Of a stretch of DNA of 64,000 nucleotides, positions 43,136 to 49,977 are shown one piece after another. This DNA is from Candidatus Nitrosoglobus terrae. Lineage in GTDB: Bacteria; Pseudomonadota; Gammaproteobacteria; Nitrosococcales; Nitrosococcaceae. Made by a program: the position numbers and the translations under genes. The DNA lies in the NCBI RefSeq assembly GCF_002356115.1, contig NZ_AP014836.1:1547501-1611500 (forward strand). Reading direction: 5' to 3'. The stretch's first letter is position 1. Each line of letters starts with the position of its first letter. Below the pieces are notes generated by a model, which was not told the DNA's origin, did not search any database, and saw only the letters and a list, made by a program, of their open reading frames with translations.

Positions 43136-43945
43136 ATGGCCGGTGTCTTTAATAAAAAACTTCAGCTACATGGTTTTAACAATCTGACGAAAACTCTGAG
43201 CTTCAATATCTATGATATTTGCTATGCGCAAACCCCTCGGCAGCGCCAAGAATATATTGAATATATTGATGAAGAATATAATGCCGAGCGGCTTACAGGT
43301 ATTTTGACTAAAGTTGCCGATATCATCGGTGCTAATATTCTCAATATAGCTAGACAAGATTATGAGCCTCAAGGGGCTAGCGTTACCATGCTCATAGCTG
43401 AAGACAAAAATAAAGAAAATCAACAACTTACTAACATAGAAGAGCCTGGCCCTCTGCCTGAGAGTCTTGTTTGCCATTTAGATAAGAGTCATCTCACCGT
43501 TCACACTTATCCTGAAAGTCATCCAGAGAATGGAATTAGTACATTTCGCGCAGATATTGATGTCTCCACTTGTGGACGGGTATCACCATTACGAGCGCTT
43601 AATTACCTTATTCATAGCTTAGAATCAGATATCGTGACCATGGACTACCGAGTTCGAGGCTTTACTCGCAGTGTAGACGGAGGTAAGCATTTCATTGATC
43701 ATGATATTGACTCAATCCAAAATTTTATCGCGGATGACACTAAAGAACGCTATCAAATGATTGATGTAAATATCTATCAAGAAAACATCTTTCACACCAA
43801 GATGATGCTTAAGAACTTTAATCTTAATGATTACTTATTTGGTGGGAATACCTCCGATCTCACATTAGAGGAGCAGCGAAAAATCACTGATCGGGTAAAA
43901 AAGGAGACCTTGGAAATATTTTATGGTAAAAATATATCTGGTTAA
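43136..43945 (+). CDS. speD: S-adenosylmethionine decarboxylase proenzyme (class 1a)
   Basis: Provides decarboxylated SAM for spermidine synthesis. The 269-residue protein is of the long E. coli type. The self-cleavage site that makes the pyruvoyl cofactor is LDKSH, with Ser near 118; [12 protein letters not shown] and [20 protein letters not shown] follow, as in E. coli. AGGAGG lies 13 bases before the ATG. speE is not in the window. The crp-osmC-speD neighbourhood is shared with Pseudomonas. Confidence 0.96.
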
Positions 43946-43984: not shown

Positions 43985-45388
43985 TTAAGGGGCTTTATCT
44001 AAATCTACAATAATGATCTCAATAATCCTAGCAAGGGAATCCACTAAAGCAGGGTCAAACGTACCATCATCAGTATTCCGGATTCGGGTAAATATCTTTT
44101 CTAATTTTTTACGCTGGTGATCTGAAATAAAGTACGTACTCATAGCTCCAGCTGCCTTATCAAGACTGAGGATATCTCGCTGAGCATGAGTACGCCGTAT
44201 TACAGCTAGGTAATGGTAAATTGCCCTCCCTAATACCACATAAGGAAAATTAATATTAGCTGCTGGCCCCACTCGTAACTCTGATCCTCCTAACGGCAAG
44301 CCTAGAATTTTAATATCTGAAATACGATTATAGGAAAACCATGCAGAGGCTCCCCCTATCATAGAACCCACCGTGGCACCTAATAAAAAGGATGTGCCGC
44401 CTACAGCTAAATCGAAGCCTGAACCAAGCAACGCTCCCCCTGCCGCCCCTGTTGTAAGTAACTGGCGTTTTTTCAAACCAAAAACATTCCAGCTATCAAG
44501 GGAGAAAAGATCTGCATCTAATATTTCAAGATCTTTTTCGCGACGCTCTAAGGCATGATAGTTATAAAACCTCTCTATAGTGCGCCGCCCTTTTTGCTCC
44601 AAATTACGTAATTCTATTTTATACTTCTGGGTTAGGGATTCCTTATAAGCATGCTCATCCTCAGTAGGAGATAATCGTTTTGTAATAGTTAACGCAATCA
44701 TATTTGCTAACATCTCTGCAATATGCTGCGCGCTTCTTTGGCACCGCACCCTTCGATCCTCTTCTAGGATTTCTACAGCTTTATTCAGCGGTGCTTGCCA
44801 TTCCTCTCGTAATTGGCCAAACGCTTTAAGTAATTCAAGGCGCTTGTGAAATTCTGCTGTAACAGCATTAAATATCCGCACAATTTTAAAATACTGGCTT
44901 AATGCTGCTCGCCATTCTTCAATATAGTCCCCTTCTCCAACCATATTAATAAGCGCAATACTTGGTTGACCAGTCCATTGTAGAATCTCCATCTCAGCTT
45001 CATATTCTTCCCCATAAGGACGAGAGCCATCAATAACATATAAAATACCCGCCCCATTAATTACAGGCGCGAGTAATTCACACTCATCAATAAATTTATC
45101 TGTATTATAGTAGGTCTCTACAAATTGACAGACAACACTAGATCGCTCTGCTGCTGTTACTGCTTGAGCTTTCATCCATGCTAATGCTTGCCGTGCCCGT
45201 TGAAACCCTGGGGTATCCACTAAAATGTATTGGACTTCACCATCTACTTTCATGGGAAAGTATCGGCTCCTCATTGTAGTACCTGGTACTAATGAAACTT
45301 GAACTGATTCATCCTGGGCTAAAGTAGCAACGATACTTGATTTACCTTTATTTGGATGGCCAACGGTCGCAAAAATAGGAACGGACAT
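43985..45388 (-). CDS. GTPase with DUF3482 domain and membrane hairpin
   Basis: A 467-residue Era/TrmE-like GTPase. G1 is GHPNKGKSS near residue 11, G3 is DTPGF near 59, and the G4 position reads ALINMVGEGD instead of the normal NKxD, so guanine specificity may be altered. The middle has helical segments, and residues about 310-350 (TTGAAGGALLGSGFDLAVGG and on) are glycine-rich and hydrophobic like a membrane hairpin. DUF3482 fills the C-terminal half. Its start shares one base with the stop of the DUF2868 gene (TAATG), a pairing found in other gammaproteobacteria. Function is not established. Confidence 0.85.
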   Translation of the reverse strand: MSVPIFATVGHPNKGKSSIVATLAQDESVQVSLVPGTTMRSRYFPMKVDGEVQYILVDTPGFQRARQALAWMKAQAVTAAERSSVVCQFVETYYNTDKFIDECELLAPVINGAGILYVIDGSRPYGEEYEAEMEILQWTGQPSIALINMVGEGDYIEEWRAALSQYFKIVRIFNAVTAEFHKRLELLKAFGQLREEWQAPLNKAVEILEEDRRVRCQRSAQHIAEMLANMIALTITKRLSPTEDEHAYKESLTQKYKIELRNLEQKGRRTIERFYNYHALERREKDLEILDADLFSLDSWNVFGLKKRQLLTTGAAGGALLGSGFDLAVGGTSFLLGATVGSMIGGASAWFSYNRISDIKILGLPLGGSELRVGPAANINFPYVVLGRAIYHYLAVIRRTHAQRDILSLDKAAGAMSTYFISDHQRKKLEKIFTRIRNTDDGTFDPALVDSLARIIEIIIVDLDKAP

Positions 45389-46923
45389 TAATCTGCTTTA
45401 AACTTCAATGGCTGAAAGGCAAGCCTTGGATCTCCAAGACTTTGTAGTTTTTGCCTCCAAATATCTAGATCCTTAGGATCAGTAGAAACCAAATTACGTT
45501 TATCATCAAACGATACCGGCACTACCATAACTATCCGCTCTAACCCTAAGGCAGTGCGAAGAGCCTCCAAAAAATCCAAAAAATCTAAAAGAGGAGGCTC
45601 CCAAGACTTTACCACTATAATTATGGCTGCTTCTCTTATCGCGCACAGTTCTTCTATCACGCGCTGATCCTGCTCAATAGAGCACTTACCTCCGGCAGGC
45701 ATTACATGGCTGATTTTCACTGCCACAGCTTGTTGAATTACATCTTCCAATTGACCTTCTTCAACATTAATCCCCGCCCAAGTAATTAAATATCCTTTAG
45801 CCCCAGCAAAACTATTCTTTTTAGCAAATTGGGTAATCTCTAGATCTTGCAATCGCTTAACTTCAGGTTCTACAGCCCCCGTCTCAACCACAGCATGATT
45901 CATACGATCAAGAACCTGCTGAGCGCCCGGGGTATGAAGAAACGCTTTTTCTAACGCCACTTTAAAGCGCCAACGAGCGGTAGTAAGCGCTAAAAGTCGC
46001 GGTAATAAGCCATAAAAAACGATCCCCATCAGCAAAAATTGCCACCATTGCCCCAATATAGCCGCATCTGTAACTGCTGTTGCATTTGGCAAAATTCCCT
46101 TATGAAGTCGATAAAACCTAGTGGCTTCAATCAAATCCAATGAAGGAAGCGCCCCCTCTAGCCAGTCACGCCACGGCCAAGCTAATTGCCTCATTAACCA
46201 ATAAAAACTATCAGCTTGATACTCTAAGGTAGTACTCCACCCAAAAGCCAAATCAGAGACCGCAACCAGATAAAAACAACCTGCTAATGCCCCTAAATTA
46301 AAGGCCACAGCAAATACTTGGGAAAGCTGCAGTATCAGCCACTTTCTCACTCGATTGTAGACAATATGGTGTATTTTTTGCCGCCCTAAAGCAGCTTCAA
46401 AAGCTAAGCGGTGCTCAGAGGGCAAAAAACGTATAAGGGGAGAAATCAAGCGCCCTGGACTAAGTACGCTGAGAAAATCCTGTAATGGACGAAATCCTGG
46501 TATAAAATGTAATAAATTTTGTGGTAATGCGATTACAGCAGACATCAGCAGGAGCAAAAGCTGAAATCCGACAAATATTGCAAGTACGTTGATAACATTA
46601 ACTGGCTGGGTGCCATTATAGGCAAATACACCTAATGCTGTTATCCAACCAACCAACACACCTAAAAAAAGCAGTACTAGCGTTATTAAACGAAGGGCTT
46701 TAACCGCATTTTCACCAAGAAAACTTTGGTGATCACTCTCAATAACCTGCCATAACCAATAACGAAGTTGACAATAAGGTTTACCCGCAAGATATGAAAG
46801 CTTTCGCCCAATATCACGATCACGGTGGTACAAACTTTCTGGATCTACAGTTGCATCTAGATCCATTTTTATGCTGAGATCCACTAAATCAGCAAGATTC
46901 GAACGAAGCGGTGTACGATCCAT
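45388..46923 (-). CDS. DUF2868 membrane protein, partner of DUF3482 GTPase
   Basis: A 511-residue inner-membrane protein. Hydrophobic segments lie near residues 86-108, 123-145, 205-225 and 293-315, and a soluble C-terminal domain follows (AAIIIVVKSWEPPLLDFLDF). DUF2868 proteins have no settled function. The strict coupling to the GTPase gene suggests a two-part membrane machine in which the GTPase works on or with this protein. It may relate to membrane stress or dynamics, but that is only a guess. Confidence 0.82.
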   Translation of the reverse strand: MDRTPLRSNLADLVDLSIKMDLDATVDPESLYHRDRDIGRKLSYLAGKPYCQLRYWLWQVIESDHQSFLGENAVKALRLITLVLLFLGVLVGWITALGVFAYNGTQPVNVINVLAIFVGFQLLLLLMSAVIALPQNLLHFIPGFRPLQDFLSVLSPGRLISPLIRFLPSEHRLAFEAALGRQKIHHIVYNRVRKWLILQLSQVFAVAFNLGALAGCFYLVAVSDLAFGWSTTLEYQADSFYWLMRQLAWPWRDWLEGALPSLDLIEATRFYRLHKGILPNATAVTDAAILGQWWQFLLMGIVFYGLLPRLLALTTARWRFKVALEKAFLHTPGAQQVLDRMNHAVVETGAVEPEVKRLQDLEITQFAKKNSFAGAKGYLITWAGINVEEGQLEDVIQQAVAVKISHVMPAGGKCSIEQDQRVIEELCAIREAAIIIVVKSWEPPLLDFLDFLEALRTALGLERIVMVVPVSFDDKRNLVSTDPKDLDIWRQKLQSLGDPRLAFQPLKFKAD

Positions 46924-47235: not shown

Positions 47236-47898
47236 ATGGATCAAAACGCCAGCAATAAGCTAGCAATATCAAGCCCGGAGCAACCACAGCTACAAATAGA
47301 AGAGCTTACTATTCGCCGAGGTGAACGGTTACTTTTTGAAAATATTAGTTTTACCGTTAACCAAGGTGATATATTTGAGGTTTCTGGCCATAATGGCTCT
47401 GGAAAAACTACGTTATTACGCTTACTATGCGGGTTATTATTGCCTGAGAAAGGAAAGCTAATATGGTGTGGACAACCTATCCATAAAGTACGCCCGCTCT
47501 ATCATAGCAACCTTGCCTATGTGGGTCACACCGATGCGATTAAAGGTGGGTTAACTGCTCGTGAAAACTTAATAGTCGCCGGAGCACTTAATGGCGGTGG
47601 GATCAGCCCGGAAGAAGCTTTAGATCGGGTAGGTTTATCTAAGCTCCGAGAGCTACCAAGTCGTTTCTTTTCAGCTGGCCAAAGACGGCGCCTAGCTCTA
47701 GCGCGATTGTTGGTTAACCGTGCTCGATTATGGCTTTTAGATGAGCCGTTTACTGCCTTGGATAAAATGGCGATAAAAACCATCTCCAGCTTGTTAGAAA
47801 CACATGCCGCTAATGGTGGAATGGCTATCTTTACGAGCCACCATGCTATCAGCATTGCTCATGCTAAACGGCTAGAAATACCTTCAATACTTGCCTGA
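47236..47898 (+). CDS. ccmA: Haem exporter ATPase CcmA
   Basis: ABC-type ATPase of System I cytochrome c maturation; with CcmB, C and D it releases haem-loaded CcmE. The 220-residue protein has Walker A GHNGSGKTTLLRL near 56 and a signature helix region FFSAGQRRRLALARL, followed by Walker B LWLLDEPFTALD. It is first gene of a complete ccmABCDEFGHI operon in which most genes overlap or are within 8 bp. Confidence 0.97.
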   Translation: MDQNASNKLAISSPEQPQLQIEELTIRRGERLLFENISFTVNQGDIFEVSGHNGSGKTTLLRLLCGLLLPEKGKLIWCGQPIHKVRPLYHSNLAYVGHTDAIKGGLTARENLIVAGALNGGGISPEEALDRVGLSKLRELPSRFFSAGQRRRLALARLLVNRARLWLLDEPFTALDKMAIKTISSLLETHAANGGMAIFTSHHAISIAHAKRLEIPSILA

Positions 47899-49378: not shown

Positions 49379-49537
49379 ATGAATACATTACAAGAATTCA
49401 TCCATATGGGCGGATACGCTCTTTACGTATGGACAGCCTACGGAATCGCCGCTGTCATCTTGATAGGTAACATTGTACATGCCTTACTTCGACAGCGTCG
49501 AATAATCCGTCAAATACAGCAGGAGGACAAATCATGA
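49379..49537 (+). CDS. ccmD: Haem exporter small subunit CcmD
   Basis: A short gene of 52 codons, too small for most gene finders. It reads MNTLQEFIHMGGYALYVWTA, then a hydrophobic helix, and ends RRIIRQIQQEDKS. This is the CcmD pattern: an N-terminal MGGYA-x-YVW stretch, a single membrane helix and a basic tail. It links CcmC and CcmE in the ABC complex. It starts 5 bp after ccmC, and its TGA overlaps the ATG of ccmE by 4 bp. Confidence 0.93.
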   Translation: MNTLQEFIHMGGYALYVWTAYGIAAVILIGNIVHALLRQRRIIRQIQQEDKS

Positions 49538-49977
49538 CCGTACGCCAAAGACGGTTTGCAATGATAACACTAGTAGTTATGGGAGTATCTATTGCTACTG
49601 GGCTTGGGCTAAAAGCCTTTCAAAAAAATATTTTGTTCTTTTATAACCCAAGCCAAGTCATGGCTGGGGAAGTCCCTACTGACACTACTATTCGGGTTGG
49701 AGGGCTAGTGGTTGATGGTAGTGTAAAACGAGAAAGCGGTAGTCTTAATATGGAATTCGAAGTTACTGATAACGCTAAAACAATGACTATCGTCTACAGT
49801 GGTATCCTCCCTGATTTATTCCGCGAAGGGCAAGGGATCGTTGCCATGGGTAAACTTGGGCCTAATAAAGTATTTGAAGCTAGCGAAGTTTTAGCTAAAC
49901 ATGATGAAAAATATATGCCCCCCGAAGTTGCTGACTCCCTAGCTAAAGTAAAACCCAATACGGAGAATAAACTATGA
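49534..49977 (+). CDS. ccmE: Cytochrome c maturation haem chaperone CcmE
   Basis: Membrane-anchored periplasmic chaperone that binds haem covalently. The 147-residue protein has an N-terminal anchor (residues 8-28), a beta-barrel domain, and the haem-attachment motif LAKHDEKYMPPEV with His near 123 and Tyr near 127. It overlaps ccmD and ccmF by 4 bp each. Confidence 0.97.
   Translation: MTVRQRRFAMITLVVMGVSIATGLGLKAFQKNILFFYNPSQVMAGEVPTDTTIRVGGLVVDGSVKRESGSLNMEFEVTDNAKTMTIVYSGILPDLFREGQGIVAMGKLGPNKVFEASEVLAKHDEKYMPPEVADSLAKVKPNTENKL

Follow-up and report, generated by a model that had tools for sequence, protein, structure and literature searches.

The DUF2868 and DUF3482 gene pair of Candidatus Nitrosoglobus terrae as a candidate two-subunit membrane NTPase

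The YcjX-YcjF stress pair of Escherichia coli has adjacent genes for a guanosine triphosphatase (GTPase)-like protein and a membrane protein of unclear function. A locus of similar make-up lies in Candidatus Nitrosoglobus terrae, in a stretch of 64,000 nucleotides (contig NZ_AP014836.1, positions 1,547,501 to 1,611,500; the window). It consists of one gene for a membrane protein with DUF2868 and one for a nucleoside triphosphatase (NTPase) with MMR_HSR1 and DUF3482, DUF standing for domain of unknown function. However, neither window protein matches a YcjX or YcjF family of Pfam at E values up to 1, and none of the listed titles on YcjX and YcjF bears on the DUF2868-DUF3482 pair.

The available excerpt of PMC12864544 has both DUFs among hypothetical Pseudomonas aeruginosa proteins, as HP14 and HP15. 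The consulted part of PMC6413534 tabulates a DUF2868 protein among proteins that differ in abundance, and the DUF names serve as markers in excerpts of PMC10797017 and PMC12440251. The full-text passages retrieved by the DUF names assign no function to either family, in agreement with an earlier reading of this DNA made from the letters alone (the sequence-only reading). The literature matches listed for pseudoGTPase with bacteria and membrane include no bacterial membrane pseudoGTPase system. PA0351/PA0352 was considered as the P. aeruginosa locus and rejected, as PA0352 is a nucleobase transporter, and for a second tentative candidate, PA0348/PA0349, the literature search yielded no paper.

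Here we propose, with a probability of about 0.5, that the pair makes one two-subunit membrane NTPase. A dead G-like domain of the membrane subunit would dock a live NTPase, which would have relaxed specificity and a Gly-zipper hairpin. New here is the kinship between the C-terminal domain (C-domain) of the DUF2868 protein and the partner's own GTPase-type (G) domain. The sequence-only reading missed this kinship, and its interpretation as a whole is partly supported.

Two genes inherited as a unit

Both window proteins exceed the curated gathering cut-offs of Pfam. The NTPase reaches 223.7 bits for DUF3482 (PF11981, residues 160-440, cut-off 29.2) and 55.4 bits for MMR_HSR1 (cut-off 21.9), and the membrane protein 257.1 bits for DUF2868 (PF11067, residues 171-498, cut-off 26.8). 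On the minus strand the DUF2868 gene comes first and the NTPase gene follows (Table 1). The coding-strand junction is ...GATTAATGTCC, and by its TAATG the TAA stop and the ATG start have base 45388 in common, just the single shared base that had been read from the letters.

Each family was searched separately, with the Pfam cut-offs, in genomes drawn evenly from the window's class, order and phylum. The DUF3482 and DUF2868 samples were taken as the same draw, since the listed handles agree. The three taxonomic samples overlap, and the distinct genomes with the pair number 52. DUF3482 exceeds its cut-off in 10/232 class, 15/59 order and 32/299 phylum genomes. DUF2868 does so in 10, 15 and 32, which are the identical genomes, so that no genome in the three samples has one family over the cut-off without the other. 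The pairing is not due to chance because both families exceed the cut-offs and it recurs in every sampled genome with either of them. Shorter matches fall below the cut-offs, such as DUF3482 in 19/59 order genomes and DUF2868 in 2/299 phylum genomes. Those of DUF3482 were discarded as short stretches, mostly at profile positions 149-216, the glycine-rich part.

The genes are adjacent and codirectional, with the membrane gene first, at all 53 loci compared (52 fetched regions and the window), and the single exception in form is L150, where the pair is one truncated chain. At least 488 relatives turned up in a scan of named contigs, and the analysis used the best 80. These 80 belong to Gammaproteobacteria, Campylobacterota, Verrucomicrobiota, a Desulfuromonadales and a Phycisphaerae bin. 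The partner is present at 77 of them and also at L236 (end at the contig edge), hence at 78/78 testable loci. In the remaining two the NTPase frame starts 53 and 71 bases from the contig end, and they are outside the count. Neisseria gonorrhoeae and Thiodictyon likewise carry both genes. The sequence-only reading had called the pair conserved and had named frequent separation of the genes as a refuting result, and these loci uphold it on both.

The trees of the two proteins (43 rows) are congruent in their main clades, with 37 A-type rows including the window and six B-type rows. One genome of the window's family (G236) has one A-type and one B-type pair (L163, L164), and their partners are unmixed in the trees. 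Occurrence is patchy within the class, yet 6/6 genomes sampled from the window's own family have the pair. This comparative evidence shows that both genes are passed on together.

Spread by phage or plasmid was considered and rejected. No relatives of the pair were found in viral contigs, and the plasmid collection holds three records with the NTPase and one with the membrane protein; the two records from Neisseria have a length of about 2.17 Mb. In Thiodictyon the pair is on a 485 kb plasmid next to light-harvesting genes (L312:3884-7431), with a much longer DUF2868 protein of 703 amino acids. The Nitrococcus mobilis locus (L171) clusters with the window's family, with support of 100/99 in one tree and 100/100 in the other. 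This grouping may possibly reflect transfer between nitrifiers, which we take both Nitrococcus mobilis and the window's family to be. In another genome (G264, L122:10111-11405) the membrane gene is broken into two open reading frames (ORFs) and the NTPase gene is whole.

The sets of 52 NTPases and 51 membrane proteins omit L150, a fusion, and L170_1_1102, another GTPase, and the membrane set also omits the two L122 pieces. Alignments A1, A2, A3 and A4 hold 38/52, 47/51, 31/52 and 45/51 sequences, after removal of overlong ORFs and near-duplicates by hand.

Motifs of the G domain and kinship between the subunits

We scored 132 NTPase relatives, 52 from whole genomes and 80 from named contigs. 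The window NTPase has the GxxNxGK[ST], the G2 Thr and the G3 DxxG of the TrmE-Era-EngA class and lacks its G4 NKxD. The unusual NMVG (N148-M-V-G151) had been noticed in its place from the letters, and in the relatives, too, the complete NKxD is found in 0/132. At this site Lys is in 1/132, and the fourth position is Asp in 16/132 and Glu in 10/132. The sole Lys bearer, L210, has NKIG, still without Asp. Controls fetched likewise have NKxD in Era (24/24) and [NT]KxD in EngB (19/21).

No [NT]KxD is present elsewhere in the window NTPase, scanned over the whole protein, and such a string outside the G4 site is in three of the 132 relatives (L135, L168 and L218), all at the far C-terminus. Hence a displaced canonical G4, which could have undone the reading of NMVG, does not appear in the window NTPase. 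The canonical SAK-like G5 is also absent, and position 174 is Asn in 66 and Asp in 65 of the relatives. As the key residues of G1-G3 are invariant, NKxD is in none and no canonical G5 is found, the enzyme seems to have retained catalysis and to have an eroded base recognition. By its motifs, therefore, the DUF3482 subunit retains the nucleotide-handling and catalytic G1-G3 of the Era/EngA class with an eroded G4, and the odd G4 is, across these sequences, a trait of the whole family.

The base preference is probably relaxed, accepting ATP as well as GTP. A precedent is YchF/Ola1, with an altered G4 (NxxE) and an altered nucleotide specificity in the available part of PMC8779481. Structurally, Era is the best match of the modelled G domain (3iev, Z 17.7, root-mean-square deviation (rmsd) 3.2, 165 residues aligned), and NFeoB (Z 15.9) is also among the closest G domains of known structure.

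The partner's C-domain is akin to this G domain. In hhalign, 45 C-domains against 31 partner G domains score 42.6 (P 2.5e-6), and the reverse direction scores 46.3 (P 5e-7). The controls are 15.1 for the reversed one, 14.0 for the best of 60 column shuffles and 21.6 for the best of 77 neighbour-gene decoy families. The C-domain scores 15.9-18.2 against EngB and 23.0-24.4 against Era, the Era alignment being in a different register. The alignment of C-domain and G domain starts at the helix that precedes beta-4, ends with beta-6 and places W489 on W159.

The secondary-structure elements of the two AlphaFold2 (AF2) models are in step over it. Those of the NTPase are 100-110, 114-120, 127-138, 143-148, 156-164 and 169-173, and the matching ones of the C-domain are, in order, 416-427, 433-439, 446-459, 465-472, 483-495 and 501-503. 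On the profile evidence, the second halves of the C-domain and of the partner's G domain are homologous, with the invariant Trp at the equivalent site. The P-loop GxxxxGK[ST] is in 0/127 of the DUF2868 proteins within their last 220 residues.

Predicted architecture and surroundings

The AF2 model of the DUF2868 protein, from 47 sequences, has a mean predicted local distance difference test score (pLDDT) of 85.6. It shows four long helices of hydrophobic character, and in the C-terminal domain alpha and beta elements alternate. Hydropathy gives the same four segments, as expected of the multi-helix membrane protein recognized by the sequence-only reading, and the charges of the loops fit a topology with cytoplasmic termini at both ends. 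Among 127 membrane-protein relatives, a set without L150 and L122, T232 is in 125/125 non-gap rows, and F227 and W229 are nearly invariant. The protein has no Foldseek match at E up to 0.001 and no transporter family match in Pfam, the best being ABC2_membrane_2 at E 0.39.

The window NTPase is modelled with a mean pLDDT of 79, and it has no RNA-binding domain match. As to the membrane hairpin claimed for it, the model has, with low confidence, a Gly-rich helical pair of moderate hydropathy at residues about 307-354, and a membrane hairpin there is plausible.

Table 1. Features of the gene pair (window coordinates)
Feature	Position	Strand	Basis or conservation
DUF2868 membrane protein gene, 511 amino acids	45388..46923	minus	ORF, Pfam, model
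Predicted transmembrane helix TM1, residues 69-99	46627..46719	minus	model, hydropathy
Predicted TM2, residues 110-132	46528..46596	minus	model, hydropathy
Predicted TM3, residues 187-222	46258..46365	minus	model, hydropathy
Motif F227-x-W229-x-x-T232, periplasmic by predicted topology	46228..46245	minus	conservation
Predicted TM4, residues 293-329	45937..46047	minus	model, hydropathy; W293 126/126 non-gap, R309 127/127
C-terminal alpha/beta domain, residues 376-503, G-like without P-loop	45415..45798	minus	model, profile comparison
Trp489, pairs with NTPase Trp159	45457..45459	minus	125/125 non-gap
TAATG stop-start overlap	45386..45390	minus	sequence
NTPase gene, MMR_HSR1 and DUF3482, 467 amino acids, proposed catalytic subunit	43985..45388	minus	ORF, Pfam, model
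G1/P-loop GHPNKGKSS, residues 10-18	45335..45361	minus	N13, G15, K16 in 132/132
G2 Thr, T37-T38	45275..45280	minus	T38 in 132/132
G3 DTPG, residues 58-61	45206..45217	minus	D58, P60, G61 in 132/132
Eroded G4 site NMVG, residues N148-G151	44936..44947	minus	N148 in 132/132
Trp159, start of alpha-4 helix, pairs with partner Trp489	44912..44914	minus	131/132
Long antiparallel helices (195-232, 245-274), predicted stalk, residues 195-274	44567..44806	minus	model
Gly-zipper helical hairpin, residues 304-358	44315..44479	minus	G322, D326, G341 in 132/132

The truncated chain of L150 (L150:7603-9765) is a single frame of 720 amino acids. In it the DUF2868 membrane part (aligned to residue 386) runs on into the helices and hairpin of DUF3482 (from residue 446), and no P-loop G domain is recognizable. 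This type of fusion is in one of 17 genomes of its genus. It hints that the hairpin region touches the membrane helices.

In the window the pair is flanked on one side by speD (43136-43945, plus strand, TIGR03331), and on the other by a region that encodes an ABC-transporter ATPase (47236-47898, plus) and, for cytochrome c maturation, ccmE (49534-49977, plus). The NTPase gene and speD are convergent and about 40 bases apart (window:43945-43985), and a simple scan detected no terminator between them. Across the sampled lineages no conserved third gene is near the pair, and the neighbours differ by lineage. Since they are lineage-bound only, the context gives no function or pathway.

Some lineages have neighbours of their own. 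In Marinobacter and close relatives an ectoine synthase gene comes after the pair (L145:10905-11300), with similar places in L144, L146, L223-L225, L228, L237, L238, L244, L245 and L247-L249. It was identified by Pfam for L145 only and by look-alike sequence for the others. An osmotic link in this one lineage is possible. Two lineages that are not related have a BacA/UppP gene immediately upstream of the pair (L119:6750-7514 and L158:11160-11969), as raw cases. Other lipid genes are near the pair in one case each, namely PgpA (L203), CDP-alcohol transferase (L139), GDPD (L186) and an acyltransferase (L185).

Proposed mechanism, alternatives and known systems

In the mechanism we propose, the dead G-like domain of the DUF2868 protein would be cytoplasmic, and the live G domain would dock on it. 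The two would form a live/dead heterodimer at the membrane, and nucleotide binding and hydrolysis would alter the docking. The altered docking would move the NTPase hairpin into or against the four-helix subunit, where the predicted periplasmic F-x-W-x-x-T motif and the membrane Arg309 may mark the working face. The least certain step is the outcome, most likely local work at the inner membrane. We infer a cellular job in remodelling or repair of the bilayer, or in the gating of a route across the DUF2868 subunit. The sequence-only reading had suggested a membrane-remodelling or stress machine as plausible, a role that is still conjectural.

Several observations weigh against this proposal. 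The homology covers about 96 columns in the second half of the G domain, and the P-loop half is outside it. The C-domain's fold scores are generic, with EngB at Z 8.4 (rmsd 3.4, 121 aligned) and Gtr1 at 7.9 tied by the non-G alpha/beta folds of a polyketide synthase ketoreductase region (8.8), AmiC (8.4), AerR (8.4) and TIR (8.3). Fold comparison alone being undecided, the P-loop half of the C-domain is G-like by topology only; absence of a family from the fold-comparison list was never counted as evidence against that family. By mutual information over 126 protein pairs, a set additionally without L149 and L159, 24 of the top 60 inter-protein pairs join the G domain and the C-domain (10.8 expected). 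The top columns are subfamily markers, which dominate this covariation.

On the NTPase side, Asp or Glu at the fourth G4 position in 26/132 relatives means that guanine preference may have been lost unevenly. K+-activated G domains of the MnmE/FeoB type have a second Asn five residues past the P-loop Lys (consulted part of PMC3466195). The NTPase family has their first Asn, that of the P-loop, and the second is in 0/132, position 21 being Ala in 67, Ser in 36 and Arg in 29. The hairpin is moderately hydrophobic (best 19-residue mean 1.29) and poorly modelled (pLDDT 33-55). The L150 fusion is a single case, no longer has the G domain and could be a relic.

Could the NTPase be an ordinary GTP-specific Era-like switch, which recognizes guanine by other contacts such as residues 174-176 at the G5 place, with DUF2868 as a receptor whose C-domain is generic and Rossmann-like? 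The whole G1-G3, the close structural match to Era, the nearly invariant Asn or Asp at 174 and the generic C-domain fold scores all fit this. However, NKxD is missing from every relative while all the Era controls have it, and the C-domain profile matches specifically the partner's G domain, so we regard this account as unlikely. An NTP-gated transporter or channel, somewhat like FeoB, would have the four-helix subunit move a small substrate under the gating of the NTPase. It draws on the invariant R309 and W293 in TM4, the conserved motif on the predicted outer side and the likeness to NFeoB. We find it improbable given the lack of a transporter family match, the presence of only four transmembrane helices and a FeoB_N score of 23.3 bits, below the cut-off of 27.

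The order of parts (G domain, long antiparallel helices, Gly-rich hairpin) also recalls a bacterial dynamin-like remodelling machine, in which these parts would oligomerize on the membrane with DUF2868 as the nucleating receptor. Mycobacterial IniA, a dynamin-like protein, is in the Foldseek list at E 4.8e-5. However, that match has a template-modelling score of 0.20 and an rmsd of 28, so no common overall arrangement is demonstrated, and Pfam Dynamin_N scores 15.4 bits, below its cut-off of 27; such a machine seems quite improbable. A module of phage defence or other mobile conflict would suit the patchy distribution over several phyla and a weak PADLOC match to LeoA (E 1.3e-4, residues 9-83). 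We give it hardly any credence, as the LeoA match is limited to the P-loop region, viral contigs hold no relative, the neighbours are conserved within the window's family with none recognized as a defence gene, and every sampled genome of that family has the pair.

The two-subunit membrane NTPase has a further, more tentative side. The pair could be a live/dead heterodimer spread over two genes, in which the dead half shares the ancestor of the live G domain and guanine specificity has been traded for general NTP sensing with catalysis kept. If true, a membrane machine could read the nucleotide or energy state. In any case, two domains of unknown function become one obligate unit in Pseudomonas, Neisseria, Marinobacter, nitrifiers, Campylobacterota and Verrucomicrobia. 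With this pair it becomes tractable to test whether a P-loop enzyme of the TrmE-Era class can drop guanine recognition and still work, and whether a dead G-like domain can be a membrane dock in bacteria. The binding of the subunits, the nucleotide preference and the role of the matching Trp residues are predictions open to ordinary biochemistry.

Among the known systems, Era, EngA (Der) and EngB share with the window NTPase the fold, the G1 GxxNxGK[ST], the G2 Thr and the G3 DTPG with the hydrophobic residue after it. The window NTPase differs in having neither NKxD nor a SAK-like G5 and in its added helical stalk, Gly-zipper hairpin and membrane partner. FeoB is alike in coupling a G domain of the same class, with the P-loop Asn, to membrane helices, whereas the window has separate genes, four transmembrane helices, a FeoB_N match under the cut-off and no second K-loop Asn.

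YchF/Ola1 resembles the window family in retaining the G4 Asn and the other G motifs with the rest of G4 altered (available part of PMC8779481). Unlike it, the window has NMVG, with NxxE in 10/132 relatives, no TGS or Obg-like Pfam match, and a membrane-associated pair. The pseudoGTPase domains of p190RhoGAP are likewise GTPase-like domains used as non-classical modules inside a larger protein (excerpt of PMC5593906). That protein is eukaryotic and a RhoGAP, whereas the candidate dead domain here is bacterial, sits on a membrane protein and appears specifically kin to its live partner.

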